Positions 19,237-41,962 of a stretch of 64,000 nt of DNA are shown here, piece by piece. Source of the stretch: Rhizobium sp. NXC24 (GTDB lineage Bacteria > Pseudomonadota > Alphaproteobacteria > Rhizobiales > Rhizobiaceae); contig NZ_CP024314.1 of assembly GCF_002944315.1 (NCBI RefSeq), forward strand, positions 248,001 through 312,000, read 5' to 3'. The notes below the pieces were generated by a model. The model was not told where the DNA came from. It ran no database searches and saw only the letters and a program-made list of their open reading frames with translations. Every line of letters begins with the position of its first letter. Position 1 is the stretch's first letter. Both the position numbers and the translations under genes were made by a program.

Positions 19237-19262
19237 TCGACACATTGTTCACAGGTATTCCC

Positions 19263-22964: not shown

Positions 22965-22982
22965 CCCGTTGTAGATCATATA

Positions 22983-25434: not shown

Positions 25435-25518
25435 CTGATCGTCCAGCTATCATTTGGGCAGCAGATACGAGAACTGCCCAGGCAGAAGGCGTGCGAAGGT
25501 CAATGGTAGCGTCATATC

Positions 25519-25544
25519 GCCTGCCGATTTGTCGATCGGCAGGC
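25519..25544 (+). terminator. Stem-loop terminator after the chemoreceptor gene
   Basis: A perfect 10-bp stem (GCCTGCCGAT / ATCGGCAGGC) with a 6-base loop lies 85 bp after the stop. A weaker 7-bp hairpin (TGGGCAG / CTGCCCA) lies just before it at 25455-25480. The two together separate the plus-strand chemoreceptor from the convergent minus-strand quorum-sensing genes. Confidence 0.6.
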
Positions 25545-26163: not shown

Positions 26164-26868
26164 TCACTTAGCCAAATAGGCGCTTTCATTGTGGTTTGAA
26201 CGAACTCTTGCGTGAGCCAAGTAGGGAAGGTGGCTCAAAGTAGTCTCGGGCTTCAGCGGATTGCGAAGCTCTGGTTCCAGCAAGAGGGTTGTTCCCTGGA
26301 TGGAGTAGAGTTGATGATGCTTCATCAAACCGGCCATCGAAGGCTTTGCTTGGATCGGCACAATCAAGCCGCCCTCCAGCAGTGACGGCAATCCGAGTTT
26401 GGTTACCTGCCAGCCTGTCGAAATCAACAGATCCACCAACTTTGGATGCGTTTCGACAATCACCGAAGTAATGCCAGCGACGAGGCAAAACTCCATGACG
26501 CCGGTCATCAAGATGTGGGAGGCCGGCACCTGATTGATCAGTACGTCACCTTCCGCGACACATCGGGTCCACTCGAAAATGTCGGGCGAGCGTGGCCATG
26601 TTCCGCCGTTCATTATCTGAGGATATACGTCCGACAGCAAATGCGGTTCTGTCGTAGGGAGCAATCGCGTATATCCGACAACGGCATCTTCGTGAAAGAG
26701 GGCGAGATGCACAGCGCGGTCGCGATCGAACTGGTCAATTTCCAATCCGTCGCTTCTGCGGATGGCCTCCCAACCGAGCCTTTCCACAAATTGCTCGTGC
26801 CGAAAGCGCCAAATTTTCTCCATTGTTTGCTCGTTTGTTGCCGAGCAACCGACGTAGACTTTTATCAT
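26164..26868 (-). CDS. Acyl-homoserine-lactone synthase (LuxI family)
   Basis: The 234-residue protein has the LuxI invariant positions: Arg and Phe in RFRHEQF, Trp in RLGWE, the D-x2-D pair in EIDQFD, Arg in GYTRLLP, and Glu/Arg in FEWTRC. The enzyme makes an AHL from S-adenosylmethionine and an acyl-ACP. It is about 20 residues longer at the C-terminus than typical LuxI proteins. It lies 99 bp downstream of a luxR gene on the same strand, forming a complete cognate pair. The acyl chain cannot be predicted from sequence here. Confidence 0.9.
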   Translation of the reverse strand: MIKVYVGCSATNEQTMEKIWRFRHEQFVERLGWEAIRRSDGLEIDQFDRDRAVHLALFHEDAVVGYTRLLPTTEPHLLSDVYPQIMNGGTWPRSPDIFEWTRCVAEGDVLINQVPASHILMTGVMEFCLVAGITSVIVETHPKLVDLLISTGWQVTKLGLPSLLEGGLIVPIQAKPSMAGLMKHHQLYSIQGTTLLLEPELRNPLKPETTLSHLPYLAHARVRSNHNESAYLAK

Positions 26869-26869
26869 C

Positions 26870-26892
26870 CTTGCCCCTGGTTTTACGGCAAG
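26870..26892 (-). promoter_or_regulatory. Inverted repeat covering the luxI ribosome-binding site
   Basis: Reading toward the gene, CTTGCC, 11 bases, then GGCAAG end one base before the luxI ATG. The 3' arm and loop contain the purine-rich ribosome site (AGGGGCAAGG). The hairpin could hide the ribosome site in the mRNA, or the repeat could act as a lux-box-like DNA site. The 6-bp stem is short, so this remains a candidate. Confidence 0.4.
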
Positions 26893-26967
26893 AATGCATG
26901 ATAGTCCCTGTGATTTAAATGAGTAAAAATACCCAGCTTTCAGTCGTTAGCCGACTTCTAAGACACT

Positions 26968-27711
26968 TTAGCGAAGTATTCCGAAACGAAAACTTTCCGC
27001 TATCATCTGGGCCGCATTCACGACATTCAGTTTGCGCTGAACGTTGAGAATCTCATTCTGAATGGTGCGGTGCGAACGTCCCAGAATTTCGGCGATCTCG
27101 ATGGCCGTCTTGCCTGCCGCGCACCATTGAATGATCTCACGTTCCCGCGCCGTGATCCGCAACAGGCTTCGATCTCGCGATCTCGCCTCTTTTGCCATAA
27201 GACCGCGCAGCGCGTTATGGGCGTAGATCGACAGGATATGCAACGCCCCTCTGGCGGCGTTGGAGAGGTCCACCTTTTCGGCACCAAATGTAACAACCGC
27301 CTGGAAGCCGCTCGCTGTGTGCAACGGCACGCTGTAGCCGTCTTTCATTTTGAATTCTCTGGCTTCGTTCATGACGCGTCGCCCGTGACGGCCAAGCTCT
27401 TGATCTCGCAGAGCCTCCGACCAAACGAAAGCGCCGTCCTGCATCTTACAGAGCTGGATAATGGGATCGGCATGAACGTAGTTGTTCGACAAATAGTGTT
27501 CAAACCATTCCGTCGGCCAGGCATTCAACATGAAGTAGGAATCGATGCGTTCTGTGGGCAAGGGTATGCCGGAAATTGCAAAACAGTTGAAACCGAAGTG
27601 GCGTGCGGATCTGTCCAGGGATCCGAGTATGTCTTCCTTGCTTTTTGCGGCTGTTGTTTCCGACAAAAAGTCGAACATTAGATTTGCGGTTGCCACTGCT
27701 TCGCTGTTCAC
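26968..27711 (-). CDS. LuxR-family AHL-responsive regulator
   Basis: The 247-residue protein has an autoinducer-binding domain and a C-terminal LuxR HTH ([20 protein letters not shown], then [20 protein letters not shown]). Five ligand-pocket residues known from TraR occur with exact TraR spacing: Trp and Tyr in [10 protein letters not shown], Asp-Pro in HADP, and Trp in FVWSEAL. The conserved Gly follows at the expected distance in KMKDGYS. It should therefore bind an AHL and act as the partner of the LuxI encoded just downstream. Regulated targets may include luxI and the two small genes after it. Confidence 0.9.
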
Positions 27712-28589
27712 TCGCCCCTCCCCAGGATTTCAGACAATGTAGGGCATATTAGCTCAAGGAAGTATTATTTTCATGACCGCATCCGCCGAATGCTGGCGGT
27801 ATATGATATTTTTATAATAAACTTGAATACGGAAGGGAAGGTCATTGGCGAGAGCAGGGCGGTCCGCATGATCTGATGGACATACCACATGCCATGAATT
27901 GCACGACTTCGCTTCGCTTTCATGCTCCTGGTCAGCGCTGGCAGCTTCGCCACAGGTCCCCTTGTCCAATCGAAAATGCACTTAAAGGTAGGCAAAATTG
28001 CTTATTTACCGTTGCGTAAGGTAGCTGTTAAATCCGACATTAAGGGAAGGAAATAACAGGCAAACGGGTGCGGGCTTACCGGAGGCCAACGATGGTCTTT
28101 CGTTGGAGGCAATGCCGTGCAGAATGGCATTGCCTGGCCGATCTTTCGGCATCTGGGAAAGAAATTCCAAAGAGCTGTGCAGGCGGGATCGAACCCGCCG
28201 CTTAAACCTCCGATACCGACGGAAGCGCCGACTTCCGTCGGCACCAATAAAATCGTCAGCCTTCAGAATCGACCCTCGACATCACTGGGTCGATGAAGCG
28301 GTGAAGCTACGGCTTGGCCGCGGCCAGGAGAGACCGGCAACGGGCACGCAGCATGTGCGGCCTGTTTCGGGAAATTGTGACGTGTGACTGATGGAGGGGC
28401 ACTTGTCCTGCCTCATCGATCAGTCTTCAGGCCTAATGATGTGACGCTGCGCCGAGATAGTCGCGATCTCGTGCGGCAGCACCAATGCTTGAATTCCGAA
28501 AGTCGAACCAAATTCAAAGCCTTGCGTCACGGTCGTAGACGACCGTGCGGGGCGCAGCGATTACGTTTCCGGCAAGCAGAGAGGGGCCC
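27712..28589. other. Gene-free stretch of about 0.88 kb before the sugar-oxidation operon
   Basis: I see no convincing coding frame: the short frames on both strands lack ribosome sites and familiar domains. The left 370 bases are AT-rich and hold the luxR upstream region. The right 500 bases are GC-rich and full of inverted repeats, six of them between 28086 and 28294 and another at 28528-28547 (CACGGTCGT / ACGACCGTG). The stretch probably holds the promoter and a long structured leader, or an independent non-coding RNA, upstream of the operon starting at 28590. Confidence 0.6.
28086..28294. other. Cluster of six stem-loops (candidate structured RNA)
   Basis: The cluster holds CCAACGA/TCGTTGG (28086-28106), abutting AGGCAATGCC/GGCATTGCCT (28107-28135), then GCCGA/TCGGC (28137-28150), GGCGGG/CCCGCC (28182-28199), CCGACGGAAG/CTTCCGTCGG (28216-28241) and ATCGACCC/GGGTCGAT (28268-28294). 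All arms are perfect. The density far exceeds what is seen in the other gaps of the window. The fourth hairpin read on the minus strand resembles a tRNA T-arm, but no tRNA can be folded around it. I recognise no known riboswitch or RNA family. Confidence 0.5.
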
Positions 28590-29027
28590 ATGAACAGCCT
28601 TAAAGGATCTTGGAAACTATCAGGATGGCGCAGGACGACCAGCAAGGGGGATGTTTCCTATCCGCTTGGTGAGGAAGCATCGGGTTTGCTTGTCTACACG
28701 TCGAGCGGCACGATGATGGTGCAAATGACGGCCGCAAACCGTCCGGCTTTCGAAACCAGCGATCCTCTCGGGGGAAGTGCCGAGGAGCGGGCGGCCGCAT
28801 ACTCAACGTGCCTCGCTTATTTCGGCAGCTACAGGGTTGGCGACGGCAAGGTCACTCACAGGATCGAAGGCAGCTCCTTTCCCAATTGGGCGGAAACCGA
28901 ACAGGTTCGGCCCTACGAGCTCAAGGGCGACGAACTGATCTTGCGCACGCCCCCTTCTGAGAGCGGCGGAATAACCACCGTAAACGAGATGTCCTGGATC
29001 CGCGTCAAGGGACCAGCCGACGCCTGA
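28590..29027 (+). CDS. Lipocalin-like domain protein
   Basis: The 145-residue protein starts MNSLKGSWKLSGWRRTTSKG and fits the bacterial lipocalin-like family (PF13924): the GSWKL opening, YPLGEEASGLLVYTSSGTMM, and a terminal strand with WIRVKG. These are small beta-barrels with mostly unknown ligands. There is no signal peptide. ATG 28590 follows GAGAGGGG. It is the first gene of the operon and ends 49 bp before the glucoamylase-like gene. A role in binding a small hydrophobic or sugar-derived molecule is a guess. Confidence 0.75.
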   Translation: MNSLKGSWKLSGWRRTTSKGDVSYPLGEEASGLLVYTSSGTMMVQMTAANRPAFETSDPLGGSAEERAAAYSTCLAYFGSYRVGDGKVTHRIEGSSFPNWAETEQVRPYELKGDELILRTPPSESGGITTVNEMSWIRVKGPADA

Positions 29028-29076
29028 CTCACTTGGGCGCGGCTGCGCCTCATTCATGCATTCGAGGGAGGAACAG

Positions 29077-30528
29077 ATGAACATCACCAGCACCATCCAT
29101 CATACGGCCCGTGCTCGGGCGGGAGTGCCGCTTGCTTTGGGAAGGCAGCACCCGAAAGCGGCCTACCAACAAACCGATCTGGCAGCTCTCGCCAAATATT
29201 TCATTCTGCTGATGCTGCGCAATGTCACGAGCGACGGCTATGTCATCGAGGATCCCGCCAATCCCGGGCAATATTCGGTGCCGGGATGCATTATCGCCGC
29301 GCCTTCCTTTCCTTCCAACACACCCGGCGTTGATCAAGACTATGTCTATAATTGGGTGCGCGACGCTGCGATCACCGCTATCGAGATCGCGGTTGCCGAC
29401 TTGCCTGGAACCCCAGGCGGTGGCGTGCCGAGCCTAGTTGATTACGTCAGCTTCGCCAGGCTCTGTCAGACCAATGCCCATCCGACGCTGGGGCACGCAT
29501 GTTTTACCGTGGCCGGGCAGCCGCGTCCCTGGACCGAACAGAATGATGGCCCCGCCATTCAGAGCCTCGCCCTCCTGCAGGCCTATCCACAGTTGGACGC
29601 AGCGACGCAAGCCATCGCCAGACAGGTCATCGAAACAAATATCTCTTATCTCCTCAGCGCCTACCAGCAGCCAACCACCAATCTGTGGGAGGAGCACGAA
29701 GGTCTGTCCTTCTTTGCGCGCTCGGTTCAGCTACGTTGTTTCCGGGAGATTGCCGCCAATAGCTATGGGATTGGCGTTGCTGCCAATATTCCAACGGCAA
29801 TTGCCTGGCTTGAAAACGCCCTTCAGGATCATTGGAACGGCTCGTACTATGTGACGATGCTGGCGCCGGGCGCCGGTCCCGGCGTTTCCGTTGTTCCCGG
29901 CGATCTCGGCTACGATCCAAACATCGACATCATTTCAGCCTGCGTCTACGGAGCGGTGCCGGCAACCGACACGAGGTTGCTTGCGACTGCAGCCCGCCTG
30001 CGCAGCCAGTGGGCGGACCCCAATTCCAATTCATTCTACCCGATCAATGGCGCGGATCAGGCACATGGGATTGGTCCTCTCCTCGGCCGCTATCCCGGCG
30101 ACACCTATGACGGCGATGTCGCCCATCCCGTCGCCGGCGGGCATCCCTGGGCGCTGTGCACATGCAACTTCGCGGAACTTTACTATCGTCTCGCCAACGA
30201 CATCGATCATGCGGGGACGGTTCCTTTGGACAGTCTGTCCGAGGATTTCTTCGCACAGGTTGGGGTGACGAGCACGACCTCCGTTGCCGATGCGTCGGCC
30301 GCGCTGCGAAACGCGGGTGACGCTATGCTGCGCGCGGTTGTCTATCACAGCGATCGTTATGAGTTGAGCGAGCAGTTCGACGGCACGTCCGGCTATGAAA
30401 AGAGCGTGCACAATCTGACATGGAGCTACGCATCATTTCTGTCTGCGGTGCGCGCCAAAACCGGCGGAAGCAAACTGTCAGGTAAGGCCGCCAGCAAGTC
30501 CGCGCGGACGTCCGGAGGCAAGAAATGA
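29077..30528 (+). CDS. GH15 glucoamylase-like glycoside hydrolase
   Basis: The 483-residue protein shows the (alpha/alpha)6 glucoamylase motifs in fungal-like form: YNWVRDAAIT near residue 90, PWTEQNDGPAIQSLALL, NLWEEHEGLSFF with the putative acid Glu near 204, GHPWALCTCNFAELYYR, and SEQFDGTSGYEKSVHNLTWS with the putative base Glu near 431. GH15 enzymes release glucose from the non-reducing end of alpha-glucans with inversion. No signal peptide is visible, so the substrate would be intracellular. The ribosome site GGGAGG precedes ATG 29077; the stop overlaps the next gene by 4 bp (ATGA). Confidence 0.88.
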   Translation: MNITSTIHHTARARAGVPLALGRQHPKAAYQQTDLAALAKYFILLMLRNVTSDGYVIEDPANPGQYSVPGCIIAAPSFPSNTPGVDQDYVYNWVRDAAITAIEIAVADLPGTPGGGVPSLVDYVSFARLCQTNAHPTLGHACFTVAGQPRPWTEQNDGPAIQSLALLQAYPQLDAATQAIARQVIETNISYLLSAYQQPTTNLWEEHEGLSFFARSVQLRCFREIAANSYGIGVAANIPTAIAWLENALQDHWNGSYYVTMLAPGAGPGVSVVPGDLGYDPNIDIISACVYGAVPATDTRLLATAARLRSQWADPNSNSFYPINGADQAHGIGPLLGRYPGDTYDGDVAHPVAGGHPWALCTCNFAELYYRLANDIDHAGTVPLDSLSEDFFAQVGVTSTTSVADASAALRNAGDAMLRAVVYHSDRYELSEQFDGTSGYEKSVHNLTWSYASFLSAVRAKTGGSKLSGKAASKSARTSGGKK

Positions 30529-30968
30529 GCGAGCGCTTTGCAAGCTTCATTGCTCTCTCGAGCGTGCTGACCGGTTTCAACGCGATGCAGCTTCACGCTA
30601 CCGGCCTGGCGGAAACCTATCTCGGCCTGCTGGATCAGATCGTTCCGGTCGATATCGTGAACGATCTGCTTGAAAGCCTTCGAGAACTGCCGGCGAACCG
30701 GGATGGTGAGCGATCAGCGGCAATTCTTAGGGATCCGCAACTTGGGCCGATCGCGCGCAACGTGATCATGCTTTGGTACTGCGGCACCTGGCAACAATTG
30801 CCTGCGGGATGGCGTACCGCCTTTGGAGCATCGCCGCTCGATAAAACCCATCTGGTCTCCGGTGCGGCCTATCAGGCCGGCCTGCAATGGCTTGCGGCGG
30901 GTGCCCATCCGCCGGGAGCCAAGCAGCAAGGTTTCGGCGCATGGGCCTTGGCGCCCGCGGGGGGATGA
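30525..30968 (+). CDS. Sugar (sorbitol/fructose-type) dehydrogenase small subunit, copy 1
   Basis: The 147-residue protein matches small subunits of FAD-dependent sugar dehydrogenases (GDH gamma, fructose/sorbitol dehydrogenase small subunit, glucoside 3-dehydrogenase partner): SSVLTGFNAMQLHATGLAET, GPIARNVIMLWYCGTWQQLP and AYQAGLQWLAAGAHPPGAK. The family chaperones and secretes the catalytic subunit, normally with a Tat signal. Here the N-terminus has no twin-arginine motif, so the complex may stay in the cytoplasm. It is coupled by ATGA to the GH15 gene and followed one base later by the GMC catalytic subunit. Confidence 0.82.
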   Translation: MSERFASFIALSSVLTGFNAMQLHATGLAETYLGLLDQIVPVDIVNDLLESLRELPANRDGERSAAILRDPQLGPIARNVIMLWYCGTWQQLPAGWRTAFGASPLDKTHLVSGAAYQAGLQWLAAGAHPPGAKQQGFGAWALAPAGG

Positions 30969-30969
30969 C

Positions 30970-32727
30970 ATGACGACCGAGATGTCCTTTGACGTGGTGA
31001 TCGTTGGCGCCGGTGTTGCCGGCGCCCTGATCGCCAAGCGTCTGACCAAGGCCGATATGCGGGTTCTGCTGCTTGAGGCAGGACCTGGCACAACGCGCAA
31101 CTACAGCGAGTACACGCAGCATCTGGAGCACTTTTACGCGGCAAACAGCAAAGGCCCGGAATCGCCGTGGCCGCCAGCGGCCGCCGCCCCGCAACCGGAC
31201 ACAGCCGATTTGCGTTCGAACAACGGCTACTTCGTCCAACGTGGCCCCAATCTCTATGGCAGCAGCTACACGCGGCTATGGGGCGGATCGACCCTCCACT
31301 GGCTTGGCGTGTCGCTGCGCATGTTGCCGGAAGATTTCCGCATGCGATCGCTGCATGGGGTCGGGCGGGACTGGCCTATCGATTACGACACCATCGCACC
31401 CTATTACGAGCAGGCCGAACACGAAATCGGCGTTTCCGCCGACGTCTCCGAACAGCACTATCTCGGGCTTCGCTTCTCCGACGGCTACGACTATCCGATG
31501 CAGCGCGTCCCGCCCAGTTTTTCGGATCGGGTGCTCGGGACGGCGGTTGACGGTATGGAGGTTCAGCTTCAGGACGAGTCGTTCCGGCTCAGGGTTCGAA
31601 GCTATCCGGCGGCTCGCAATTCGCTGCCGCGCAACTCCTACCGGCCGGTCGGCATCGGCTATCTCGGGGAGCGCTGCGAGGGCAATACATCCTGCACGCC
31701 GATCTGTCCGGTGCAGGCGAAATATAATGCCAGCAAAACCCTCGCTCAGGCGGCTTCGAACCGGCTGACCGTCATGACACAGGCAGTGGCCTCGAAGATC
31801 CGTATCGATCCGGCAAGCGGCGAAGTGAAGGGGATCGAGTATCAGCGCTACGAGGATCAGACCTCGACGGAGGCAAAGACCTTCGTCGCAAAGGCCCGGG
31901 TCTACGTTTTGGCGGCCCATGCCGTGGAAAATGCCAAGCTCATGCTGGCTTCAGGTATCGACGGTCCGCGCGGTCAAGTCGGCAAGACCCTCATGGATCA
32001 TCCGACGCTCTATGCCTGGGGGCTCGCGCCCTCTTCGATCGGTGCCTATAGGGGCCCGCAGTCGACGGCCGGCATTGAGGATTTGAGGGGCGGTGCGTTT
32101 CGCTCAAAACACGCGGCATTCCGCTTTGACATCGGCAATGACGGCTGGCGGGCGAGCGCCGGAGCTCCCGACACGGCGGTTTTGCAGGCGGTGATGAACG
32201 GCGGGCTCTACGGCTCGGCGCTGCGTGGGGAACTGGAAGCGACACTGCCGCGCCAGATCCGCTTCTCCCTTGCGGTCGAACAGCTTCCCGATGCTGCCAA
32301 TAGCGTCAGCATCGATCCGCGCTATCGCGACCCCCTCGGCAATCCGCGCCCCGTGATCGATTACAGGATCGATGACTATACGCTGGCCGGAATGGCGGCC
32401 GCTTCGGGTGTCGCCGAAGCCGTGTTTCGTCGAGCCGGGATAAAGGATTGTACCGATCCGGATAAGGGAAGCTGGTTCCCTACGGTCGATTATAAGGGGC
32501 GCACTTTTAGCTATCACGGAATGGGGCATTTTGCCGGAACGCATGCCATGGGCGCGGACCCCAGCGGCTCCGTCCTCGATTTGGACCAGCGGGCCTGGGA
32601 GCATCGGAACCTTTTTATCGTCGGTTCAGGCAGCTTTCCAACGCTTGGCACGTCCAATCCCACTCTGACCCTATCGGCTTTGGCATTGCGGACAGCGGAT
32701 CGGTTGATCGCGACCTTCGCACACTGA
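30970..32727 (+). CDS. GMC-type FAD sugar dehydrogenase with [3Fe-4S] motif, copy 1
   Basis: The 585-residue flavoprotein has the FAD fold (DVVIVGAGVAGALIAKRL), the cluster motif C236-x5-C242-x3-C246 (CEGNTSCTPIC) matching FAD-glucose and fructose dehydrogenase large subunits, and the catalytic C-terminal block with His in FAGTHAMG and Asn in TSNPTLTLSA. Such enzymes oxidise a sugar hydroxyl, for example C1, C2, C3 or C5, and pass electrons through the iron-sulfur cluster. ATG 30970 follows the small-subunit stop by one base. No cytochrome c subunit gene is present. Glucoside 3-dehydrogenase activity is a plausible inference. Confidence 0.88.
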   Translation: MTTEMSFDVVIVGAGVAGALIAKRLTKADMRVLLLEAGPGTTRNYSEYTQHLEHFYAANSKGPESPWPPAAAAPQPDTADLRSNNGYFVQRGPNLYGSSYTRLWGGSTLHWLGVSLRMLPEDFRMRSLHGVGRDWPIDYDTIAPYYEQAEHEIGVSADVSEQHYLGLRFSDGYDYPMQRVPPSFSDRVLGTAVDGMEVQLQDESFRLRVRSYPAARNSLPRNSYRPVGIGYLGERCEGNTSCTPICPVQAKYNASKTLAQAASNRLTVMTQAVASKIRIDPASGEVKGIEYQRYEDQTSTEAKTFVAKARVYVLAAHAVENAKLMLASGIDGPRGQVGKTLMDHPTLYAWGLAPSSIGAYRGPQSTAGIEDLRGGAFRSKHAAFRFDIGNDGWRASAGAPDTAVLQAVMNGGLYGSALRGELEATLPRQIRFSLAVEQLPDAANSVSIDPRYRDPLGNPRPVIDYRIDDYTLAGMAAASGVAEAVFRRAGIKDCTDPDKGSWFPTVDYKGRTFSYHGMGHFAGTHAMGADPSGSVLDLDQRAWEHRNLFIVGSGSFPTLGTSNPTLTLSALALRTADRLIATFAH

Positions 32728-32741
32728 TCGCAATTGCGCGT

Positions 32742-32757
32742 GCCGGCAAAAGCCGGC
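32742..32757 (+). promoter_or_regulatory. Small stem-loop between the two GMC genes
   Basis: GCCGGC, AAAA, GCCGGC form a 6-bp hairpin 14 bp after the first GMC stop, in the 179-bp gap that is the largest inside this operon. It may be an attenuator or mRNA-stability element, or mark an internal promoter region for the second half of the operon. There is no clear T-run. Confidence 0.4.
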
Positions 32758-32906
32758 CGACGAATTCATCCATCCGGAGCGGTCCTTTGATCGCGCCACG
32801 CAAAAGGGAGCAAGCGGAATGCATCTATCATGTCGGCTGCGCGCCAACCGGAAAGAAGGGCGAGAGAGCAGCACCCGTTTTTCACCGTATAGGATGGAGG
32901 TGCGCC

Positions 32907-34763
32907 ATGCTGTTTGCCATTGACTCTGCACGAAGAACCGACGCCGGAGCCGTCGCTGCGGACGGAAATTATGATGCGGTGGTCGTCGGCACCGGCATCT
33001 CGGGCGCCATCATCGCCAATGAGCTCAGCAAGGAGGGCAAGCGTGTCCTTGTCCTGGAAGCTGCGTCCGGAACGAACCGGACCTTAGCCGGATATGATGC
33101 CTTAGTAACCAACTTTTATAGTGCAGCAAGCAAGGACAACCAGTCGCCCTATCCGGTCAATCCCAATGTTCCGATGCCGCGTAGCGGGGAGCTGCGCAAG
33201 CTCCAGCCGGGCGAAACCGACGCCTCGACCTATATGGTGCAATCCGGCCCCTACGTGACCGACACGACCTATACGCGGATTTTTGGCGGCACGACCATGC
33301 ACTGGGAAGCCAAAACGCCGCGACTGTTGCAGGAGGACTTCAAGTCGAACGCACTGTACGGTCAGGGGCTCGATTGGCCGCTGGACTATCACGACATCGA
33401 GGCGGACTATCAGACTGCCGAGCGCGAGATCGGCGTGTCGGCCGATGTCGAGGACCAGAGCTATCTCGATATCACCTTTCCCTCCGGTTACGTCTATCCC
33501 ATGCGGGGTCTGCCACTTTCCTACCTGGACCAGAAGGTGGCAGAGGGCATCGACGGAACCACGGTCGAGCTCCGCGGCGAAACCTATCCCGTCAAGGTGC
33601 GGCCCTATCCCCAGGGACGCAACGGCATCCCCAATCCAGCCTATGACGGAGGCAAGGGATATGTGCCGGTCGGCGCGGTCAATACGCACGAGGTCGAGGA
33701 GGGGGGACGCTGTCAGGGCAACACGAACTGTGTTCCGATCTGTCCCGTGCAGGCGCGCTATCATTCCGGGAAAACGCTGGCGAAAGCATTCCAGACCGGC
33801 CGCGTCGATCTCCTAGCACAGGCTGTCGCCTCGCGCGTTCTGATCGACAGTGACTCGGGCCGGGTGACTGCACTCGAGGTCAAGGTCTACAAGAACGAGG
33901 CCTCGCCCGAATATGAAACGATCACCGTCAAGGGCAAGATCTTCGTGCTGGCCGCAGGGGCCATCGAAACGCCGCGGCTGATGCTGGCATCGGGCCTGCA
34001 GAGCTCGAGCGGTCTGATCGGCCGCAACCTGATGGATCACGCCTATTTGCTGAGCTGGGCGCTGATGCCGGAGATCTGCGGCACCATGCGTGGCACGAGC
34101 TGCACCGGCGGCATCGTGGATTTGCGCGGCGGGGCTTTCAGGCGGCATCAGGCGGCCTTCAGCGTCGATATTCACAATGATGGCTGGGGATGGGCTGTCG
34201 GCTCGCCCTATTCCGACGTCACGGAGCTTGTCGACCAGCATAACCGCTTCGGCGGCGATCTAAGGCAGGGCCTGATAGACCGCATTTCGAGCCAATTGCT
34301 GCTCGCCTTCATGATCGAAGTGATGCCGGTCGAGAGCAATCGCGTCACGGTCGATCCGAAATATACCGATCTGCTCGGCAATATGCGGCCGGTCGTCTCG
34401 TTCACGGTTCCTGAATACACGATGCGTGGTGCCGCCTATGCGCGGGAGTTCGCAAAGACCATGTTTGCCCGGCTCGGTGCAGCCGACCACACCCGCTACG
34501 ACCCCAGCGATTACGGCTACATGAACTACGAGGGCGAAGGCTATGCCATCCGTGGCGGCAACCACCTGGCCGGCACCCACATCATGGGATCGGACAAGCA
34601 GAGGTCGGCGGTAAACATCGACCAGCGCTCATGGGAGCACGACAACCTCTACCTAGTCGGGGGTGGGAGCATGCCCACCATCGGTACCGCCAATGTCACC
34701 TTGACCCTCGCCGCACTGTGCTACCGCAGCGCTCGAGCAATGCTGAAACAGTTGCAACGATAA
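32907..34763 (+). CDS. GMC-type FAD sugar dehydrogenase with [3Fe-4S] motif, copy 2
   Basis: The 618-residue protein is a paralogue of the preceding GMC enzyme: FAD fold (DAVVVGTGISGAIIANEL), cluster motif C269-x5-C275-x3-C279 (CQGNTNCVPIC), and the C-terminal block LAGTHIMG with NVTLTLAALC, so the usual catalytic Asn is in TANVTL. ATG 32907 follows GGATGGAGG; a longer in-frame start at 32787 lacks support. The N-terminus has no Tat signal (MLFAIDSARRTDAGAVAADG). It differs enough from copy 1 to suggest a second substrate or oxidation site. Its small subunit is probably the product at 35910. Confidence 0.87.
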   Translation: MLFAIDSARRTDAGAVAADGNYDAVVVGTGISGAIIANELSKEGKRVLVLEAASGTNRTLAGYDALVTNFYSAASKDNQSPYPVNPNVPMPRSGELRKLQPGETDASTYMVQSGPYVTDTTYTRIFGGTTMHWEAKTPRLLQEDFKSNALYGQGLDWPLDYHDIEADYQTAEREIGVSADVEDQSYLDITFPSGYVYPMRGLPLSYLDQKVAEGIDGTTVELRGETYPVKVRPYPQGRNGIPNPAYDGGKGYVPVGAVNTHEVEEGGRCQGNTNCVPICPVQARYHSGKTLAKAFQTGRVDLLAQAVASRVLIDSDSGRVTALEVKVYKNEASPEYETITVKGKIFVLAAGAIETPRLMLASGLQSSSGLIGRNLMDHAYLLSWALMPEICGTMRGTSCTGGIVDLRGGAFRRHQAAFSVDIHNDGWGWAVGSPYSDVTELVDQHNRFGGDLRQGLIDRISSQLLLAFMIEVMPVESNRVTVDPKYTDLLGNMRPVVSFTVPEYTMRGAAYAREFAKTMFARLGAADHTRYDPSDYGYMNYEGEGYAIRGGNHLAGTHIMGSDKQRSAVNIDQRSWEHDNLYLVGGGSMPTIGTANVTLTLAALCYRSARAMLKQLQR

Positions 34764-34806
34764 GCCTCGGACCGCTTCCGCGCGCACAACAATCGGAGAA
34801 GCCAGC

Positions 34807-35913
34807 ATGTCTGACACTATTACAACGCTTCATGCTCTCAAGGAGCATCTGTACGCAGCAATGCAACTGGAACATGCAACCATTCCACCCTATCTGACGG
34901 CGCTTTATTCGATCAAGCCCGGTACCAACGTGGATGCTGTCCAAGTCATTCGGGTGGTCGCGGTCGAGGAAATGCTGCACTTGACGGTTGCGGCAAACCT
35001 TCTGAACGCCATCGGCGGGACCCCTGATTTGACCAGGCCAGGATTCGTGCCTTCCTACCCCGCGCATCTTCCGGACGGTGAAACCGATTTCAAAGTAAGT
35101 CTGGCGTCGTTCAGCAAGGAGACGCTTGCGATCTTCAAGAAGATCGAGCGTCCGCGTCTCGCCCCGGGATCACAGAAGCTCGTGAAACGCCTGTACCGTG
35201 GAAGCGTGTCGGTGCTTGCAAGCTATCCGGGCGCCAGCGACATGCAATATTACAGCATTGGGGATTTCTACGCGGCCATCGAAGACGGATTCGATCGTCT
35301 TGAGAAGGAAGCGAATGCCGCCGGTAAGACGATTTTCATCGGGGATCGGAAGCGCCAGGTCACATCGGAATATTACTATTCCGGCGGCGGCGAGCTCTTT
35401 CCCGTCATTGATATCGAAAGCGCAAGATCGGCGATCCGCCTGGTGATGGAACAGGGCGAAGGTGCCGGCGGCGGCATCTATGACCATGAGAGAGAACTCG
35501 CGCATTACTACCGCTTCGACGAGCTGGACAGAGAGCGCTACTACCAGCCCGAGGACAGGCCCGGCCATCCGACCGGCCCGACCTTCAGCGTCGATTGGCA
35601 GGCGGTTTATCCGGTCAAACCCGATCTGAAACTCTCCGACATCGACGGCAATAAGAACCCCGAACTCTACGAGGCGGCGCTCTCGTTCAATCAAACCTAT
35701 GCGGAATTCCTCGGGCAATTGACGCTGGCTTTCAACGGCCAGCCGCAGTTGCTGCTGCAGGCAGTGCCCAGAATGTTCGAATTCAGGAATCTGATGGGAG
35801 ACCTGATCCGCAATCCCCTGCCCAACCACCCCGGCCAATATGCGATGGCGACGTTTGAGATTGGCGACAAAGAACTGGTGCGCGGCGTGGCGATCGAGGA
35901 GGCGCAGGCATGA
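34807..35913 (+). CDS. Ferritin-like (VioB/iminophenylpyruvate-dimer-synthase-type) protein
   Basis: The 368-residue protein has an N-terminal ferritin-like domain (PF12902 type): MQLEHATIPPYLTALYS, then VAVEEMLHLTVAANLLNAIG with the E-x2-H metal motif, and a longer C-terminal part (YDHERELAHYYRFDELDRER) that may complete a second metal site. The family is best known from VioB and RebD, which couple iminopyruvates in bisindole biosynthesis, but many members stand alone with unknown function. It starts 43 bp after the second GMC gene and overlaps the next gene by ATGA. Its redox-active di-iron site might serve the neighbouring flavoenzymes. Confidence 0.82.
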   Translation: MSDTITTLHALKEHLYAAMQLEHATIPPYLTALYSIKPGTNVDAVQVIRVVAVEEMLHLTVAANLLNAIGGTPDLTRPGFVPSYPAHLPDGETDFKVSLASFSKETLAIFKKIERPRLAPGSQKLVKRLYRGSVSVLASYPGASDMQYYSIGDFYAAIEDGFDRLEKEANAAGKTIFIGDRKRQVTSEYYYSGGGELFPVIDIESARSAIRLVMEQGEGAGGGIYDHERELAHYYRFDELDRERYYQPEDRPGHPTGPTFSVDWQAVYPVKPDLKLSDIDGNKNPELYEAALSFNQTYAEFLGQLTLAFNGQPQLLLQAVPRMFEFRNLMGDLIRNPLPNHPGQYAMATFEIGDKELVRGVAIEEAQA

Positions 35914-36455
35914 GTACCAAAGATCATTCCCACCACTTTCTTGCCTTCTCGACGGAGGTGAGCGCCTTTGCCACCTTCGAATTGTGGGCCACAGGCCAGG
36001 TAGAAGCCTACCTTGCGACCGTCACCGCCGCAGTTGGCGACGAGATCTTGAACGAACTGCTTTTCACCTACGAAAAGATCTGTCTGGAGACGGAAGGCCA
36101 GCCTTCGTCCAAGCGGAAGGCACGTCTGCGCCGGGAGATTTTTGGAAGCGAGAAACTTGGCCCGGTCGCGCGAAACATCATCAAGCTCTGGTACGTCGGC
36201 ACTTGGTACGAACTGCCGACGGCCTGGTTCGAGGCGTTCGGTGTCAGGTCAAAGGACGTGACCTTTGTCGTATCGCCGGCGGCCTATGCCGAAGGCCTGA
36301 TGTGGAAGGCGATCGGAGCCCATCCCGCGGGGGCGAAGGCCCCGGGTTACGGGTCATGGGCGTCCCCGCCACGGATTCCGGCATTCGCGGGCGAGCATGC
36401 GAATGCGCAAGTCAAGGAAGTTCAAGTCAACCGCAACGAAGGATTGGCAAAATGA
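35910..36455 (+). CDS. Sugar dehydrogenase small subunit, copy 2
   Basis: The 181-residue protein is a paralogue of the small subunit at 30525: FSTEVSAFATFELWATGQVE, GPVARNIIKLWYVGTWYELP and AYAEGLMWKAIGAHPAGAK align clearly. It has a longer C-terminal tail and no Tat motif. It overlaps the ferritin-like gene by ATGA at its start and the TIM-barrel gene by ATGA at its end. It is the likely partner of the second GMC enzyme, though the two are separated by the ferritin-like gene. Confidence 0.8.
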   Translation: MSTKDHSHHFLAFSTEVSAFATFELWATGQVEAYLATVTAAVGDEILNELLFTYEKICLETEGQPSSKRKARLRREIFGSEKLGPVARNIIKLWYVGTWYELPTAWFEAFGVRSKDVTFVVSPAAYAEGLMWKAIGAHPAGAKAPGYGSWASPPRIPAFAGEHANAQVKEVQVNRNEGLAK

Positions 36456-37390
36456 GCACGCAAACACCTCGACTCTCCCCCGATAAAGTCTGGCTTGGAA
36501 TCACGCCGACGCTTTGGTGGAATGATGATTTCATCAATATCGATATCGGCATTCCCTTCGAGCAATGCATCAGCGAAATGGCGCTTGCCGGCTATGTCGG
36601 CTGCAGCATCGGCCACAAATATCCGACGAACCCCAAGGTTCTGAAGGCGGCACTCGACCTGCGTGGTCTGCGCGTCTCTGAACCATGGGTCAGCACCTAT
36701 TTCACGATTAAAGCCATGAAAGAGCAGACAATCGCAAAGGTTCGCGAGCAACTCGCCTTTTTGGAGGAGATGGAGCGCGGCAGCACGGATCCGAGGAGAG
36801 CAGATCTTGTCGTGGCCGAGTTCGGCCATGCCGTCAATCCGCTGCCATTCGCGCTGTTTCCGAATTGCCCGACGTTGACCGACGAACAGTGGGATCGATT
36901 GGTGGATGGACTGCATCAGATTGGCAGGATTGCCAGGGAGGAAGGTCGGCGCCTTTGCTATCATCCGCATCTCGGCACCGGTGTGATGATCGCTTCGGCC
37001 GTCGATCGGCTGATGGAAAGGACCGATCCGGATATCGTCCATCTGTTGCTGGATACCGCCCATCTTGCCGCCGCCGGCGTCGATCCCCTGGCTGTCACCA
37101 AGAAATACGCCTCCCGCATCAAGCATATCCACCTGAAGGATATCCGCGCCGATGTCGTAAGCCGCGTTCATGCAGAAGGGCTTTCCTTCGAGGCGGCCAT
37201 TGAGGCCGGCATATTCACCGTTCCCGGCGACGGCTCGATAAAGACCTTCCCGCAAATTCTTGCGACGCTTGCTGAGGCCAATTTTGCCGGTTGGCTGGTG
37301 ATCGAGGCAGAGCAGGATCCGGCAAAGGCCAATCCGCTCCGTTATGCCAAGATGGCGCGTGCCTATCTGCACGAGACGCTTGGGTGGTAG
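36452..37390 (+). CDS. Xylose-isomerase-like TIM barrel (IolE-type)
   Basis: The 312-residue protein resembles inosose dehydratase and sugar isomerase/epimerase barrels: KVWLGITPTLWWNDDF, CYHPHLGTGVMI, LLDTAHLAAAGVDP, IKHIHLKDIRAD and VIEAEQDP. The Asp, His and Glu in these blocks are the typical metal ligands. IolE dehydrates 2-keto-myo-inositol; relatives isomerise or beta-eliminate keto sugars. In this operon a 3-keto or other keto sugar made by the GMC enzymes is the natural substrate. The start overlaps the previous stop by ATGA and it ends 2 bp before the next gene. Confidence 0.85.
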   Translation: MSTQTPRLSPDKVWLGITPTLWWNDDFINIDIGIPFEQCISEMALAGYVGCSIGHKYPTNPKVLKAALDLRGLRVSEPWVSTYFTIKAMKEQTIAKVREQLAFLEEMERGSTDPRRADLVVAEFGHAVNPLPFALFPNCPTLTDEQWDRLVDGLHQIGRIAREEGRRLCYHPHLGTGVMIASAVDRLMERTDPDIVHLLLDTAHLAAAGVDPLAVTKKYASRIKHIHLKDIRADVVSRVHAEGLSFEAAIEAGIFTVPGDGSIKTFPQILATLAEANFAGWLVIEAEQDPAKANPLRYAKMARAYLHETLGW

Positions 37391-37392
37391 CG

Positions 37393-38394
37393 ATGGATAG
37401 GGGCGCAAAAAGAGAGATTTTGCTGAGCCTGTTCATGTTTACGGCGGACCTGCGGCCGAATGATCGGGCCTATACCCAAATCCTGATCGATCACATCAAG
37501 GCCCTTCTCGCCATGGGTTACGACGGCTTCGATTTGCCGATCGCCGCCCAGCAGACGAGCGACCATCAGGCCGAGATCGACAGCTACGCCCGCTTCAAGC
37601 AAGCCTTGGACGCCGCCGGCTTGGAAACGATACGCTTCACGACCAATGTCGGGACAACCCGTACCTTCGATCCAACGTCGCCTTTCCGGGAGCAGCGGGA
37701 AGGCGCCTTGGCCTACTTGAAGTCCCGCGTCGACATCACGTCGATCCTGGGTGGCAAGACCGTCATGGCGGGACCGATCGTCTTCCCTTATGGCGTCTTT
37801 CCGACGCTCGATTCCGGCACGCCGCTATGGAGCGACGCGCTGCAGGATTGGCTTGAACCTCGCTACAGGCTCGCGCGGCCGATTATCGAGGAACTCGCCA
37901 ATTATGCGGAAAAGAGAGCCGTCAAGCTCGCGATCGAGCCGGTGGACCATTGGGAAACACCGGCGCCGAACATGGTCTCGGATGTGCTCGATTTTCTGGA
38001 AGGGGTCGGCAGTTCCCAGGCGGGCTTGACCATCGACAGCGCCCATGTGGTGCTTGGAAGCAGCGGACCTGCGGCTTTCCAGAACGACTTGCGCAACACC
38101 GTGGCGCAGCGTCGTCTGAACTACATCCATATTTCTGCGCCTGATCGAGGCGCGTTGAAGGACTGCTGGATCCCCTGGGAAAGCTTCCTTGCGCCGATCC
38201 TGCCGGTCTATGACGGCCCATTCCTGATCGAAGTCTTCAACGCGGTGCCGGCTTTTCTCGGCGGCCTGCGTCTAACCCGTCGCAAGTTCTGGATTCCCGG
38301 CGAGGATCAGCCGGTGGCGGACCAATCCAGTGCCTACGACCTCGCCCGCGACGGTTTGGAAACCCTCCGGGAGGAATTCGCCAAGCTTGAGTAA
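37393..38394 (+). CDS. Sugar isomerase/epimerase-like TIM barrel (tagatose/psicose 3-epimerase relatives)
   Basis: The 333-residue protein has the four metal-ligand blocks of ketose 3-epimerases: Glu in LAIEPVDHWE, Asp in LTIDSAHVVLG, His in YIHISAPDRG and Glu in FLIEVFNAVP. Unlike classic enzymes it has a longer insertion before the first ligand. It starts 2 bp after the preceding barrel gene, so the two are expressed together. Members of this superfamily also act as 3-keto-glycoside lyases and C-glycoside deglycosidases. That activity would suit a pathway with two sugar oxidases; it is an inference. Confidence 0.83.
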   Translation: MDRGAKREILLSLFMFTADLRPNDRAYTQILIDHIKALLAMGYDGFDLPIAAQQTSDHQAEIDSYARFKQALDAAGLETIRFTTNVGTTRTFDPTSPFREQREGALAYLKSRVDITSILGGKTVMAGPIVFPYGVFPTLDSGTPLWSDALQDWLEPRYRLARPIIEELANYAEKRAVKLAIEPVDHWETPAPNMVSDVLDFLEGVGSSQAGLTIDSAHVVLGSSGPAAFQNDLRNTVAQRRLNYIHISAPDRGALKDCWIPWESFLAPILPVYDGPFLIEVFNAVPAFLGGLRLTRRKFWIPGEDQPVADQSSAYDLARDGLETLREEFAKLE

Positions 38395-38457
38395 CTTTCG
38401 GCGCTTTAATCGATCCGCTGACACCGACCAATATCACAAAAAGGACTGGTGACGACG

Positions 38458-39387
38458 ATGAACGAAATACAGCCTTCACCTCTTCACATGCGGGGCCTGA
38501 CCACATTGCGGCGCGTGGCGCCGTCACAGCGGGTCACCGCCGATCGACTCGGCGCCCTGGCGGATCTCCCCGGTTTCTGGGAAGGGACGGGTTTCAGCCT
38601 TATTGCTCGTCCCGATTATTCCGGGCGCAGCGAACACGGCTTCTACCTTCAACTCAATCTGTTGCATGAAACGATCGAATTCACTTCGATCGGCTCCCCC
38701 GTCTTCAATCGTGGCAGCGAGCAAGGCGATATCGCCATTTATGGCGTCACCTATCTGCATCGCGTCACGGACGGCACCAATGGCGGCGCGCTTCATATCG
38801 AACCCGGCATGTGGCTGACTATCCCGGCGACGACTGCGCCAAAGGCCGACGCGAGCATTGCGAGGCTGGGTACGATTCCCCACGGCAATGCCTTCTGCAC
38901 GGTTGGTTTCGTACAGCATGCGGAGTTCAACAAGGTACCGGACATTCCGCCGGCCAATACGATACCCTTCCCCATAGACGGCAAGCCGCCGGAACCCGGC
39001 AGCAAGAATCCGTATCCGGAATATGATCTCGCCATTCCGAGCCAATTCCGAACCAATCCTGTCCCGGCAGGCATTGTTCAGGCGATGATCGATGACCCCA
39101 ACCAGGTGCTGCGGGATACCTTGAACCATCAGGTCTTCGAGCAGGGGCAGACGCTCAAGCAGATCACACGGTTGATAACCTCCACGGCCGGCGGCATCGC
39201 AAATATCCCGTTCATCACCACCAATGCCAATACGCTCGATCTCGACTCCGTCTTTGCCATCGAAACTGTCGTGGACGCTCTGGGCAACGAGTTTCTGCAA
39301 CTGCAATATTCGCAAACCGGCTTGCTGAATTTCAAAGGCAAGAGCTTTCCGCACGTAACGGTCGGAACATTGATCAAAGCATTTTAG
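38458..39387 (+). CDS. Heme-binding/lipocalin-like beta-barrel family protein of unknown function
   Basis: The 309-residue protein contains LGALADLPGFWEGTGFSLIA, GDIAIYGVTYLHRVTDGTNG, HIEPGMWLTIPATTAP and TIPHGNAFCTVGF, a pattern shared by large bacterial and fungal proteins sometimes labelled heme-binding. It looks like a beta-barrel with a helical C-terminal part. No signal peptide is visible. The ATG at 38458 is 64 bp after the epimerase gene with AAAAAGGA upstream; a GTG three codons earlier is possible. It is the last gene of the operon. Its ligand is unknown. Confidence 0.7.
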   Translation: MNEIQPSPLHMRGLTTLRRVAPSQRVTADRLGALADLPGFWEGTGFSLIARPDYSGRSEHGFYLQLNLLHETIEFTSIGSPVFNRGSEQGDIAIYGVTYLHRVTDGTNGGALHIEPGMWLTIPATTAPKADASIARLGTIPHGNAFCTVGFVQHAEFNKVPDIPPANTIPFPIDGKPPEPGSKNPYPEYDLAIPSQFRTNPVPAGIVQAMIDDPNQVLRDTLNHQVFEQGQTLKQITRLITSTAGGIANIPFITTNANTLDLDSVFAIETVVDALGNEFLQLQYSQTGLLNFKGKSFPHVTVGTLIKAF

Positions 39388-39526: not shown

Positions 39527-40429
39527 TTAATGTTTCAAAATGACCTTCCCTTGAGCTCCCGCGGCGACCGCGTTTTGGGCCGCCCCGATCTCTTCGAGCT
39601 GGAAGCTGTGCGATATGGGTATGACGAGCAATCCCCGCGCGGCTGCGTCCAGCACCGCGTCGAGCGTGGCAGCATCGGTTCGATGGTAGAGTTCGTGGAT
39701 GATCACGCGGTTGTCGGTGTTGGCGCCTTCGGGCACCGGAACGATGCTGGCGACTTGACCGCCGTCTTTCACATGTCCGATGAGGTTTTGAGCCACAGGC
39801 GCCGCGGCGCTAATCGCGTAGTTGAAGGTGGGGCTCTCCGCTGGCACGGTGATGTCCAAGGCTTCTTCCGCTAGCTCCTGCGCCTCATTCAACCGCTCTG
39901 GCCGAACGCCGGCGACAGGTTTGGCACCTATCTGCTGGATGTATTGGATCGCGGCGCGTCCAACAGAGCCGAGAGCACCCGAGATCAATACACGGTCGCC
40001 TGCCTTGACACCCAAGGCATCCACCGTCTGCCGCCCGGTAAGGCCAGCCTTAACCAAGGCCGCTCCCTGTTCGAACGTCAGTGCGGCGGGCAGCTTGGCA
40101 ACGGAGGTTGCGGGCACGAGTCCGAATTCGGCATGGGCGCCTTTGCCATTCGCTGAGAAGTCGGCAACGACCCTGTCGCCGATCGCAAAGCCCGTAACGC
40201 CTTCACCGATTTCCGATATCGTGCCAGCGGCGTCGCCGCCCAGCACCGCCGGCAGCGGAAGCGGTATGTACTGAGCCATAAAGCCCTGGCGCAGGATGAG
40301 GTCGAAGGGGTTAACGGCCGAAGCTTCGATTTTGATCAGGACTTCACCGGCTCCCGGCTTCGGTGTCGGAATATCACCGATCTCAAATTGCTCGATACCG
40401 CCATAGGATTTCAGAAGAGCAGCCTTCAT
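39527..40429 (-). CDS. NADP-dependent zinc-independent quinone oxidoreductase (MDR family)
   Basis: The 300-residue protein is a medium-chain reductase of the quinone oxidoreductase branch: MKAALLKSYGGIEQFEIGDI, NPFDLILRQGF, GGDAAGTISEIGEGVTGFAI and a nucleotide-binding motif GALGSVGRAAIQYIQ. No structural zinc cysteines are seen. The family reduces quinones or enones with NADPH. ATG 40429 is preceded by GGAGACA; an upstream ATG 11 codons earlier is less likely. It follows the DoxX and dioxygenase genes on the same strand, a set often controlled by the divergent LysR regulator. Confidence 0.88.
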   Translation of the reverse strand: MKAALLKSYGGIEQFEIGDIPTPKPGAGEVLIKIEASAVNPFDLILRQGFMAQYIPLPLPAVLGGDAAGTISEIGEGVTGFAIGDRVVADFSANGKGAHAEFGLVPATSVAKLPAALTFEQGAALVKAGLTGRQTVDALGVKAGDRVLISGALGSVGRAAIQYIQQIGAKPVAGVRPERLNEAQELAEEALDITVPAESPTFNYAISAAAPVAQNLIGHVKDGGQVASIVPVPEGANTDNRVIIHELYHRTDAATLDAVLDAAARGLLVIPISHSFQLEEIGAAQNAVAAGAQGKVILKH

Positions 40430-40543
40430 TGCTTGTCTCCAGATGTCTGGTGTTGCTTTCACAAAATTCCGGTCTTCCGCCGAACGTTTGATCAGATCGC
40501 ATGAGCGCGATACGCCCCTGCCGCCCGACGGAAGTACGCTGGC

Positions 40544-40966
40544 TTATGCGCTTTTCGTGGCTGAGACCTGGTTCGAAGACGAGCGCCGGATGTTGTCCAA
40601 TGCCCAGCTACCGGCGCCGGCAAAGGCGATGAAGAGGAAGATGAAGCAGAACATGATGGCTGGCTCGCCCATGTTGAGTGCCGGCCAGAAGCCCTGCGGC
40701 GCATGCGCCATCCAGTAGGCGGCTGCCATTTCGCCCGAGGCGATGAAGGCGGCGACGCGCGTGAAGAGACCGGCGGTAATCAGCAATCCAGTGACGATCT
40801 CGATTGCGCCGGCGATGAGCATGATGGCCGGCAACGGATAGGGCACGCCCGGAATTGCCGCCGGGAACTGGAAGAACTTCATTGTCGCGTGTTCGAGGAA
40901 CAGCAGTGCGGTCACGATCCGCAAAATCGCGAGGACATGAGGCGTCCATTTCGTGGTGTTCAACAT
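40544..40966 (-). CDS. DoxX family membrane protein
   Basis: The 140-residue protein has four hydrophobic helices (VLAILRIVTALLFLEHA, AIMLIAGAIEIVTGLLIT, AAFIASGEMAAAYWMA, AIMFCFIFLFIAFAG) and the DoxX pattern LFLEHATMKFFQFP. DoxX-like proteins occur with thiol or quinone redox enzymes in the inner membrane; their exact function is not settled. It lies 75 bp after the dioxygenase gene and 114 bp before the quinone oxidoreductase gene on the same strand. Confidence 0.9.
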   Translation of the reverse strand: MLNTTKWTPHVLAILRIVTALLFLEHATMKFFQFPAAIPGVPYPLPAIMLIAGAIEIVTGLLITAGLFTRVAAFIASGEMAAAYWMAHAPQGFWPALNMGEPAIMFCFIFLFIAFAGAGSWALDNIRRSSSNQVSATKSA

Positions 40967-41041: not shown

Positions 41042-41878
41042 TCATTGGCCTGACGCGGCGATGGGCACATTGCCGAAGCGGAAGCTGGAAGCTGTGAGCC
41101 CGCCTGCGAAGTCATTCTGATGATAGGTGACGGCGCCGGGTTCATCTCTTGCGGCCCCGACTGCCACCATCAGCGGGATGAGATGATCCTCGCGTGGATG
41201 CGCAGCGCGGGCAGATGGTGCCTGCTCCCATTCGAGCAACAGCTTCGCTCGCTCATAGGGAGAAGAGTGGACCAGCGTCTGCTGGAGCCACGCATCAAAC
41301 TGGCGGGATGGCTCGTGGCCTTCATTGCCCCGCATGGCCCTCAGATTGTGATAGCTGAGGCCGCTTCCGATGATCAGCACGCCTTCATCGCGCAGCGGCG
41401 CCAGCGCGCGCCCGGCTTCAAGATGCAATGCCGGATCGTAGCTGACGTCCAGTGAGAGCTGAACGACAGGCACGTTTTCCTCGGGATAGAGCGGCTTCAG
41501 GATACTGAAAGTACCATGGTCGAAACCACGGGTCGGATCGAGCGCAGCCTCAATGCCGCGTCCCTGCAGCAGAGCCTGCACGCGCTTGGCAAGCTCAGGC
41601 TGGCCCGGCGCACCATATTTGATGTGATAAAGATATTCGGGGAAGCCGTGATAGTCGTAGACCATCCCCGGCTGGGCGCCTGAAGATATGGCAAAGCGCT
41701 GCTCTTCCCAATGGCCGGAGACCACCAAGATTGCCCGGACTGCATTGCCGAGCTCCGCGCGCATCTCGACCAACGACTGCTCGAGCTTGTCGAAGTTCCG
41801 GCGGAATCCATCGGTGATATAAGGCCAGGGACCACCGCCATGGCTGACGAAATAGGTCGGAAGACTAAGCTCATTCAT
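41042..41878 (-). CDS. Extradiol dioxygenase of the LigB/DODA type
   Basis: The 278-residue protein has the class III ring-cleavage motifs: TYFVSHGGGPWPYI near the start, ILVVSGHWEEQRFAI, RGFDHGTFSILKPLYPE, VLIIGSGLSYHNL and REDHLIPLMVAVGAA. The His residues in SHGG and GLSYHN are expected metal or acid-base residues. Homologues open catechols such as DOPA. ATG 41878 has AAGGG upstream; longer frames are weakly supported. It is divergent from a LysR gene with a clear LysR box between, and heads a DODA-DoxX-oxidoreductase cluster. Confidence 0.9.
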   Translation of the reverse strand: MNELSLPTYFVSHGGGPWPYITDGFRRNFDKLEQSLVEMRAELGNAVRAILVVSGHWEEQRFAISSGAQPGMVYDYHGFPEYLYHIKYGAPGQPELAKRVQALLQGRGIEAALDPTRGFDHGTFSILKPLYPEENVPVVQLSLDVSYDPALHLEAGRALAPLRDEGVLIIGSGLSYHNLRAMRGNEGHEPSRQFDAWLQQTLVHSSPYERAKLLLEWEQAPSARAAHPREDHLIPLMVAVGAARDEPGAVTYHQNDFAGGLTASSFRFGNVPIAASGQ

Positions 41879-41962
41879 ATGGATCTGCCCTTGTCGAACT
41901 GTGCGGATGCCGCATGGCATCTTGGCTTGATGGGCAGACCTTGAACTTTTCGCCAATGTTGA

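Follow-up and report, generated by a model that had tools for sequence, protein, structure and literature searches.

Several described systems each share part of their make-up with the locus reported here, a ten-gene operon at positions 28590-39387 of a 64,000-nucleotide stretch of Rhizobium sp. NXC24 (GCF_002944315.1, contig NZ_CP024314.1, forward-strand positions 248,001 to 312,000), the whole of which we call the window. The GlycDH-OGE-HYD-Gfo operon of A. tumefaciens (PMC10628242) likewise combines an oxidoreductase with two sugar-isomerase-like barrels in one operon; however, it has a second oxidoreductase (Gfo), whereas no Gfo/Idh reductase occurs among the ten genes of the window operon, and the available part of its account names no GH15 enzyme, ferritin-like protein or luxRI, all of which the window has. 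The GlycDH of Rhizobium sp. GIN611 was expressed together with a signal protein of the Tat pathway, while simple scans revealed no export signal on the operon proteins. The FAD-GDH and FDH complexes (6a2u, 8hdd, 7w2j and 8jej) resemble the window in having a GMC enzyme with an Fe-S Cys motif and in the predicted fold of the small subunit, but in the window neither a Tat-like signal nor a cytochrome c gene was seen, and a ferritin-like gene is present instead. In fungi, aldos-2-ulose dehydratase (AUDH) works with pyranose 2-oxidase (as the title of a paper from 1992, cited in PMC11650716, indicates), and this cortalcerone route, as far as that source describes it, resembles the pathway proposed below in that oxidation of a sugar by a GMC enzyme would be followed by dehydration; moreover, an AUDH propeller occurs in a Bacteroidota form of the locus. 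Unlike the fungal route, the window GMCs score far below the pyranose oxidase cut-off and are accompanied by an IolE-like barrel. Finally, RaiR/RaiI of R. etli and R. leguminosarum are, as in the window, a LuxR/LuxI pair oriented divergently from an operon of this family, but the Rai form has a helix-turn-helix (HTH) gene between raiI and the operon, and the window pair is 22-27% identical to Rai (27% for the synthases). We found no description of the gene set in open-licence papers (supplements excluded), and none of them joins raiI with a glucoamylase, in agreement with the preliminary description of this DNA, which knew of no such system; as far as our literature searches reach, the genes are new as a combination.

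The ten genes had been proposed to form an operon, and they are indeed a genuine one, with the following members:

28590..29027, + strand: lipocalin-like protein (accessory); PF13924, 116.2 bits
29077..30528, + strand: GH15 glucoamylase-like protein; alignable with fungal glucoamylase 1agm at the WEE and SEQFD stretches
30525..30968, + strand: small subunit 1 (accessory); 43% identity to small subunit 2
30970..32727, + strand: GMC oxidoreductase 1 (accessory); Fe-S Cys motif
32907..34763, + strand: GMC oxidoreductase 2 (core); Fe-S Cys motif
34807..35913, + strand: ferritin-like protein (core); PF12902, 234 bits
35910..36455, + strand: small subunit 2 (core); predicted fold alignable with the small subunits of FDH and FAD-GDH
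36452..37390, + strand: IolE-like dehydratase barrel (core); TIGR04379, 320.3 bits (cut-off 290)
37393..38394, + strand: second sugar-isomerase-like barrel; PF01261, 89.2 bits
38449..39387, + strand: FMP-type heme-binding protein (accessory); NF040572, 249.2 bits (cut-off 150)

We tentatively propose, with a confidence somewhat short of even, that this operon serves a quorum-associated pathway in the cytoplasm that oxidises and dehydrates a sugar derived from an alpha-glucan, the oxidase being a GMC/small-subunit enzyme partnered by a diiron ferritin-like protein. Locus neighbourhoods were mapped with tblastn and hidden Markov models in 57 fetched entries with a ferritin-like match above 150 bits, from which 15 duplicate ids, one of them the window's own copy, had been removed; these entries amount to 55 records, as L059/L071 and L064/L074 are each counted twice, and the plasmid loci among them were hand-picked from listings. 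A locus was considered as core when the GMC, ferritin-like, small-subunit and IolE-like genes were all present. This four-gene core was found in 37 of the 57 entries, which span Alphaproteobacteria, Gammaproteobacteria and Bacteroidota, and all 37 core loci carry an alpha-glucan hydrolase, namely GH15 in 33 and a glycogen-debranching enzyme (GDE) in four, so that the conserved co-occurrence required by the preliminary description is borne out. The other 20 entries include triplets free of sugar genes, partial or decayed copies, and ferritin-like genes with different neighbours. Relatives of the ferritin-like protein were detected in seven of 247 genomes drawn from the family (E-value 1e-20), and, with an E-value of 1e-10, in three of 385 drawn from the class and 12 of 398 drawn from the phylum, the window genome being counted in each draw; they also occur in 159 plasmid records.

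Genes for a metallo-beta-lactamase (MBL) and a thiamine pyrophosphate (TPP) enzyme are present in 23 of the 37 core loci, while a second intact GMC together with the heme protein, as in the window, is found in just nine; therefore, the two oxidation steps suggested in the preliminary description are not general. A search of the rest of the window genome for the TPP enzyme gave at best 24% identity. The same set of eight genes is split into two divergent units in Vibrio (L043) and Pseudoalteromonas (L105), where the GH15 proteins are just 28-29% identical to that of the window, and a TCR/Tet-family MFS transporter gene, possibly for export or self-protection, adjoins the Pseudoalteromonas operon at its TPP end (L105:1-372). 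At L049:1-5510 and L021:1-5491 (R. etli 8C-3 and R. sullae), the operon is preceded by the end of a type I polyketide synthase (PKS) gene and an AMP-ligase/methyltransferase/carrier protein; a PKS-linked natural product was rejected as a general role, since, apart from L049, these PKS and AMP-ligase genes were found at a single fetched locus, L021.

The Cys motif from which a [3Fe-4S] cluster is predicted in the GMC enzymes is present in 53 of 53 aligned GMC rows, and GMC2 aligns with 6a2u and 7w2j across it. The best NCBIfam match of both window GMCs is pyranose oxidase (TIGR02462; 77.8 and 72.7 bits). Small subunit 1 gives a weak FAD-SLDH match (18.6 bits, below the cut-off of 24.2), and the predicted small-subunit fold aligns with the small subunits of FDH and FAD-GDH in a fold comparison; the sequence profile of the small subunits had a single match in the PDB, which we judged to be due to chance. 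Simple scans for RR pairs and CxxCH revealed no RR pair among the first 40 residues of either small subunit, and hence no Tat-like signal there, no export signal on any operon protein and no visible signal peptide on GH15; nor is there a c-type cytochrome gene nearby, CxxCH being confined to three shadow frames (18-46 kb). These results support the GMC/small-subunit pairs without a cytochrome subunit that had been noticed earlier, and make the cytoplasm, as had also been suggested, the probable location of the pathway.

The ferritin-like gene lies directly after the GMC gene in intact mapped loci, including the small subunit-GMC-ferritin triplets without sugar genes in Hahella (L047 and L048) and Ruegeria (L056), an arrangement suggesting that its product may be a third partner of the GMC enzyme. 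Residues E22, E55, H58, E114, E218 and H233 are invariant across the 27 aligned rows and are candidate diiron ligands, and the model of the protein (pLDDT 85.9) matches the fold 3hl1. VioB-like amino-acid chemistry was rejected, as the protein scores 24 against a VioB cut-off of 1250 and the match covers only a portion of the ferritin-like region. In Azospirillum oryzae (L071:9955-11967) and Mycetohabitans (L057:5875-7902), a protein of 670-675 aa, a neighbour with no Pfam match, is encoded directly upstream of the ferritin-like gene. Loci with a decayed GMC gene are located on contigs or plasmids of R. leguminosarum and its relatives and of Bradyrhizobium elkanii.

Both barrels are of the sugar type, as had been claimed, the first passing the IolE cut-off and the second containing PF01261. 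The IolE-like barrel resembles 3cny (192 bits) and matches weakly (32 bits) 8ro4, a 2-hydroxy-3-keto-glucal hydratase. Since the window genome encodes another IolE with a higher score on TIGR04379 (371 bits) and 31% identity to the operon barrel, the substrate of the latter probably differs from myo-inosose or scyllo-inosose. The second barrel matches 2qw5 (387 bits), a PDB entry named merely as a barrel; among the 120 listed of its 1148 relatives, those with a source name are called sugar phosphate isomerase/epimerase, xylose isomerase or a 3-epimerase.

A different form of the locus is found in Bacteroidota. In Aquimarina (L040 and L041) and Persicobacter (L109), the gene order is GMC, ferritin-like, small subunit, AUDH propeller, debranching enzyme, GH63-like and IolE-like, and residues 20-417 of the AUDH-like protein of L041 align with fungal aldos-2-ulose dehydratase 4a7k (215 bits). 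The AUDH homologue in these three loci points to dehydration of an oxidised free sugar. L088, a locus from the window's family, also has debranching and GH63-like genes, with no AUDH match within its 19 kb. AUDH-propeller homologues (43-44%) occur in a different setting on the Streptomyces plasmids L110 and L111, where genes for an FAD-binding protein, MFS transporters and an MBL-fold protein are located no more than about 9 kb away.

Next to the operon and divergent from it is a LuxR/LuxI pair (26164-27711) that the preliminary description overlooked, and an inverted repeat lies ahead of the first operon gene:

26164..26868, - strand: LuxI-type acyl-homoserine lactone (AHL) synthase; PF00765, 76.7 bits (cut-off 24)
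26968..27711, - strand: LuxR-type AHL-binding regulator; PF03472, 115.4 bits, and PF00196, 49.1 bits, both above cut-off
28528..28547, no strand assigned: 20-bp inverted repeat (7+6+7), a weak candidate regulator site, 43-62 bp ahead of the first start codon

This luxI is one of three found in the window genome, in which a random point has a chance of 0.0085, a rough yardstick, of lying within 10 kb of a luxI gene. Our detection of luxI covered the fetched flanks and relatives of three luxI families, and under these conditions luxI was found at 19 of the 37 core loci, all of them in Rhizobium: the window type at L016, L036 and L089-L091, Rai at 13 loci, and the T1473 type at L092. The family labels fall at four separate GMC2 positions in a quick tree of the 53 GMC rows, some branches of which have SH-aLRT values below 95. 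The identity of Rai was taken from the annotation of strain CIAT 652 and the dadR context described in PMC13133039, the main text of which, supplements aside, does not contain the words GMC, ferritin or glycoside hydrolase; the words glucoamylase, ferritin and iolE are likewise absent from the available text of PMC13295618. According to the accessible parts of earlier accounts, raiI/raiR had been described by 2002 (reference in PMC5977203), loss of raiI raised nodulation in R. etli (PMC5977203), raiIR-regulated genes had not been identified as of 2014 (PMC4149787), and a 2018 review gave no Rai phenotype beyond its AHL in R. leguminosarum bv. viciae (PMC5977203).

Comparison of Rai-type loci suggests that the operon occupies an exchangeable place. 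The flanks of the CIAT894 locus (L104) show 81-88% identity to those of R. leguminosarum TA1 (L052, reverse complement), and in place of the stretch 15245-25524 of TA1, from GH15 to TPP, CIAT894 has about 2.1 kb that holds three unnamed genes. These genes are also found after raiRI-HTH in L101-L103 (77-90% identity), though R. acidisoli (L103) is not a clean swap, because its left flank agrees while a piece of its right flank is inverted and more distant. These replacement genes (L104:9001-13391; L101-L103) encode proteins of about 224, 239 and 134 aa, the first two about one-third identical, and have no Pfam or NCBIfam match above cut-off. When the best place was taken in the 60 listed of 148 plasmid records, raiRI and the operon formed one stretch in 27, the operon lacked rai in eight and raiRI-HTH lacked the operon in 10; thus, raiRI is not bound to the operon, and the place after raiRI-HTH resembles an output slot. 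We rejected rhiABC as an alternative rai cargo, there being no significant match. The arms of the 28528 dyad are perfect in the window, L089, L090 and L091 and have one mismatch in L016; the dyad was not found in L036, despite its window-type luxRI, or in L050, L092, L017, L018, L023 and L030, and among 2000 random stretches, 117 contain a perfect dyad of the same shape. The signs of quorum control of the operon are adjacency, the cargo swap and this weak dyad. In R. jaguaris (L113:5070-7039), rhiA, tail-fibre protein and rhiC genes are located about 4 kb from a window-type luxRI. Downstream of the window operon, the other strand encodes a GroES-like alcohol dehydrogenase (39530-40462), DoxX (40547-40966) and a LigB-type dioxygenase (41045-41956).

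In the scheme that we propose, we infer the regulation, the substrate, the carbon oxidised, the product and, for the ferritin-like protein, both the metal site and the role as a partner. GH15 would take a sugar from an alpha-glucan or alpha-glucoside, and the GMC/[3Fe-4S]/small-subunit enzyme would oxidise it to a keto-sugar, which the IolE-like barrel would dehydrate by abstracting the proton next to the carbonyl with loss of the beta-hydroxyl; the second barrel may then isomerise or hydrate the dehydration product. The diiron ferritin-like protein would substitute for the cytochrome subunit, by handing electrons on to O2 or by consuming the peroxide that is formed. The second GMC pair of the window form would add an oxidation, and this form has the heme protein and the lipocalin-like protein where MBL and TPP enzymes occur in the common form. 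As AHL quorum-sensing genes adjoin the pathway, and probably control it, in several Rhizobium lineages, its product is likely to be useful at high density, perhaps as an unsaturated keto-sugar or pyranone, rather than to feed growth.

The same genes might instead catabolise glycosides by oxidation and elimination, the GMC enzyme making a 3-keto-glycoside, one barrel eliminating the aglycone and the other hydrating 2-hydroxy-3-keto-glucal, much as the preliminary description had suggested. The gene logic of the A. tumefaciens operon, so far as its account could be consulted (PMC10628242), and the weak 8ro4 match speak for this explanation, but the operon has neither a Gfo/Idh reductase nor a transporter, its constant partners in 37 of 37 core loci are alpha-glucan hydrolases (GH15 or GDE), quorum-sensing neighbours are generally unusual for catabolism, and three Bacteroidota loci carry an AUDH homologue. 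Glycoside 3-oxidation with beta-elimination is therefore kept as one option, which we consider unlikely; the Bacteroidota AUDH form, together with the fungal pairing of AUDH with pyranose 2-oxidase, leads us to prefer oxidation and dehydration of an alpha-glucan-derived sugar. A housekeeping role in the use of glycogen or trehalose in stationary phase, as a respiratory or O2-consuming side route with no special product, would fit the GH15/GDE partners and the general knowledge that density-dependent genes often serve stationary phase; we regard it as quite doubtful in view of the patchy distribution within the family (the seven of 247 genomes, the window's own included), the dehydratase and decarboxylase-type genes, and the PKS/AMP-ligase neighbours at two loci.

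Our proposal of quorum-associated oxidation and dehydration has points against it as well. Both window GMCs fall far short of the TIGR02462 cut-off of 544.9, and the closest solved GMCs act on C1 of glucose or C5 of fructose, which bears on the carbon oxidised. For the small subunit, the match concerns a helical fold and has a Foldseek E-value of 0.18; the window genome gave no AUDH match, in a search that returned none in any of 14 controls either; and no transporter gene is found among the ten. Other ferritin-like subfamilies adjoin the 670-aa protein, and an intact ferritin-like gene stands beside a decayed GMC in L025, L028, L032, L045, L051 and L055. As for the quorum link, luxI was not detected, by the three-family search, at 18 of the 37 core loci, including all those outside Rhizobium; palindrome scans of the intergenic regions revealed no lux box common to all loci; and every luxRI family also occurs without an adjoining operon, as seen for raiRI, for the window-type luxRI, and for a T1473-type pair located elsewhere in the window genome. 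The last three observations would also be expected if luxRI and an operon free of quorum control merely hitch-hiked together on mobile plasmid segments. We think this improbable, however, as three luxRI families lie at four tree positions, the rough per-locus chance is low (0.0085), and the segment exchange just downstream of raiRI-HTH is clean.

The operon is thus conserved and patchily distributed, and indirect evidence suggests that several Rhizobium lineages have placed sugar oxidation and dehydration under quorum sensing. It is a concrete candidate for a Rai output in strains in use (R. etli CFN42 p42f), and in other rhizobia we expect these enzymes to be driven by unrelated quorum pairs. 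We also propose the ferritin-like protein as a new partner for GMC/Fe-S/small-subunit sugar enzymes. A bolder version, which seems rather unlikely to us, is that the operon is the bacterial equivalent of the fungal route through pyranose oxidase and aldos-2-ulose dehydratase, by which rhizobia at high density would convert alpha-glucan in the cytoplasm to a dehydrated keto-sugar that serves as a signal or antibiotic, with an oxidase in which a diiron ferritin-like subunit stands in for the cytochrome, as an output of Rai. If this is true, a cortalcerone-like route would be the missing output of Rai quorum sensing, with a new kind of oxidase.

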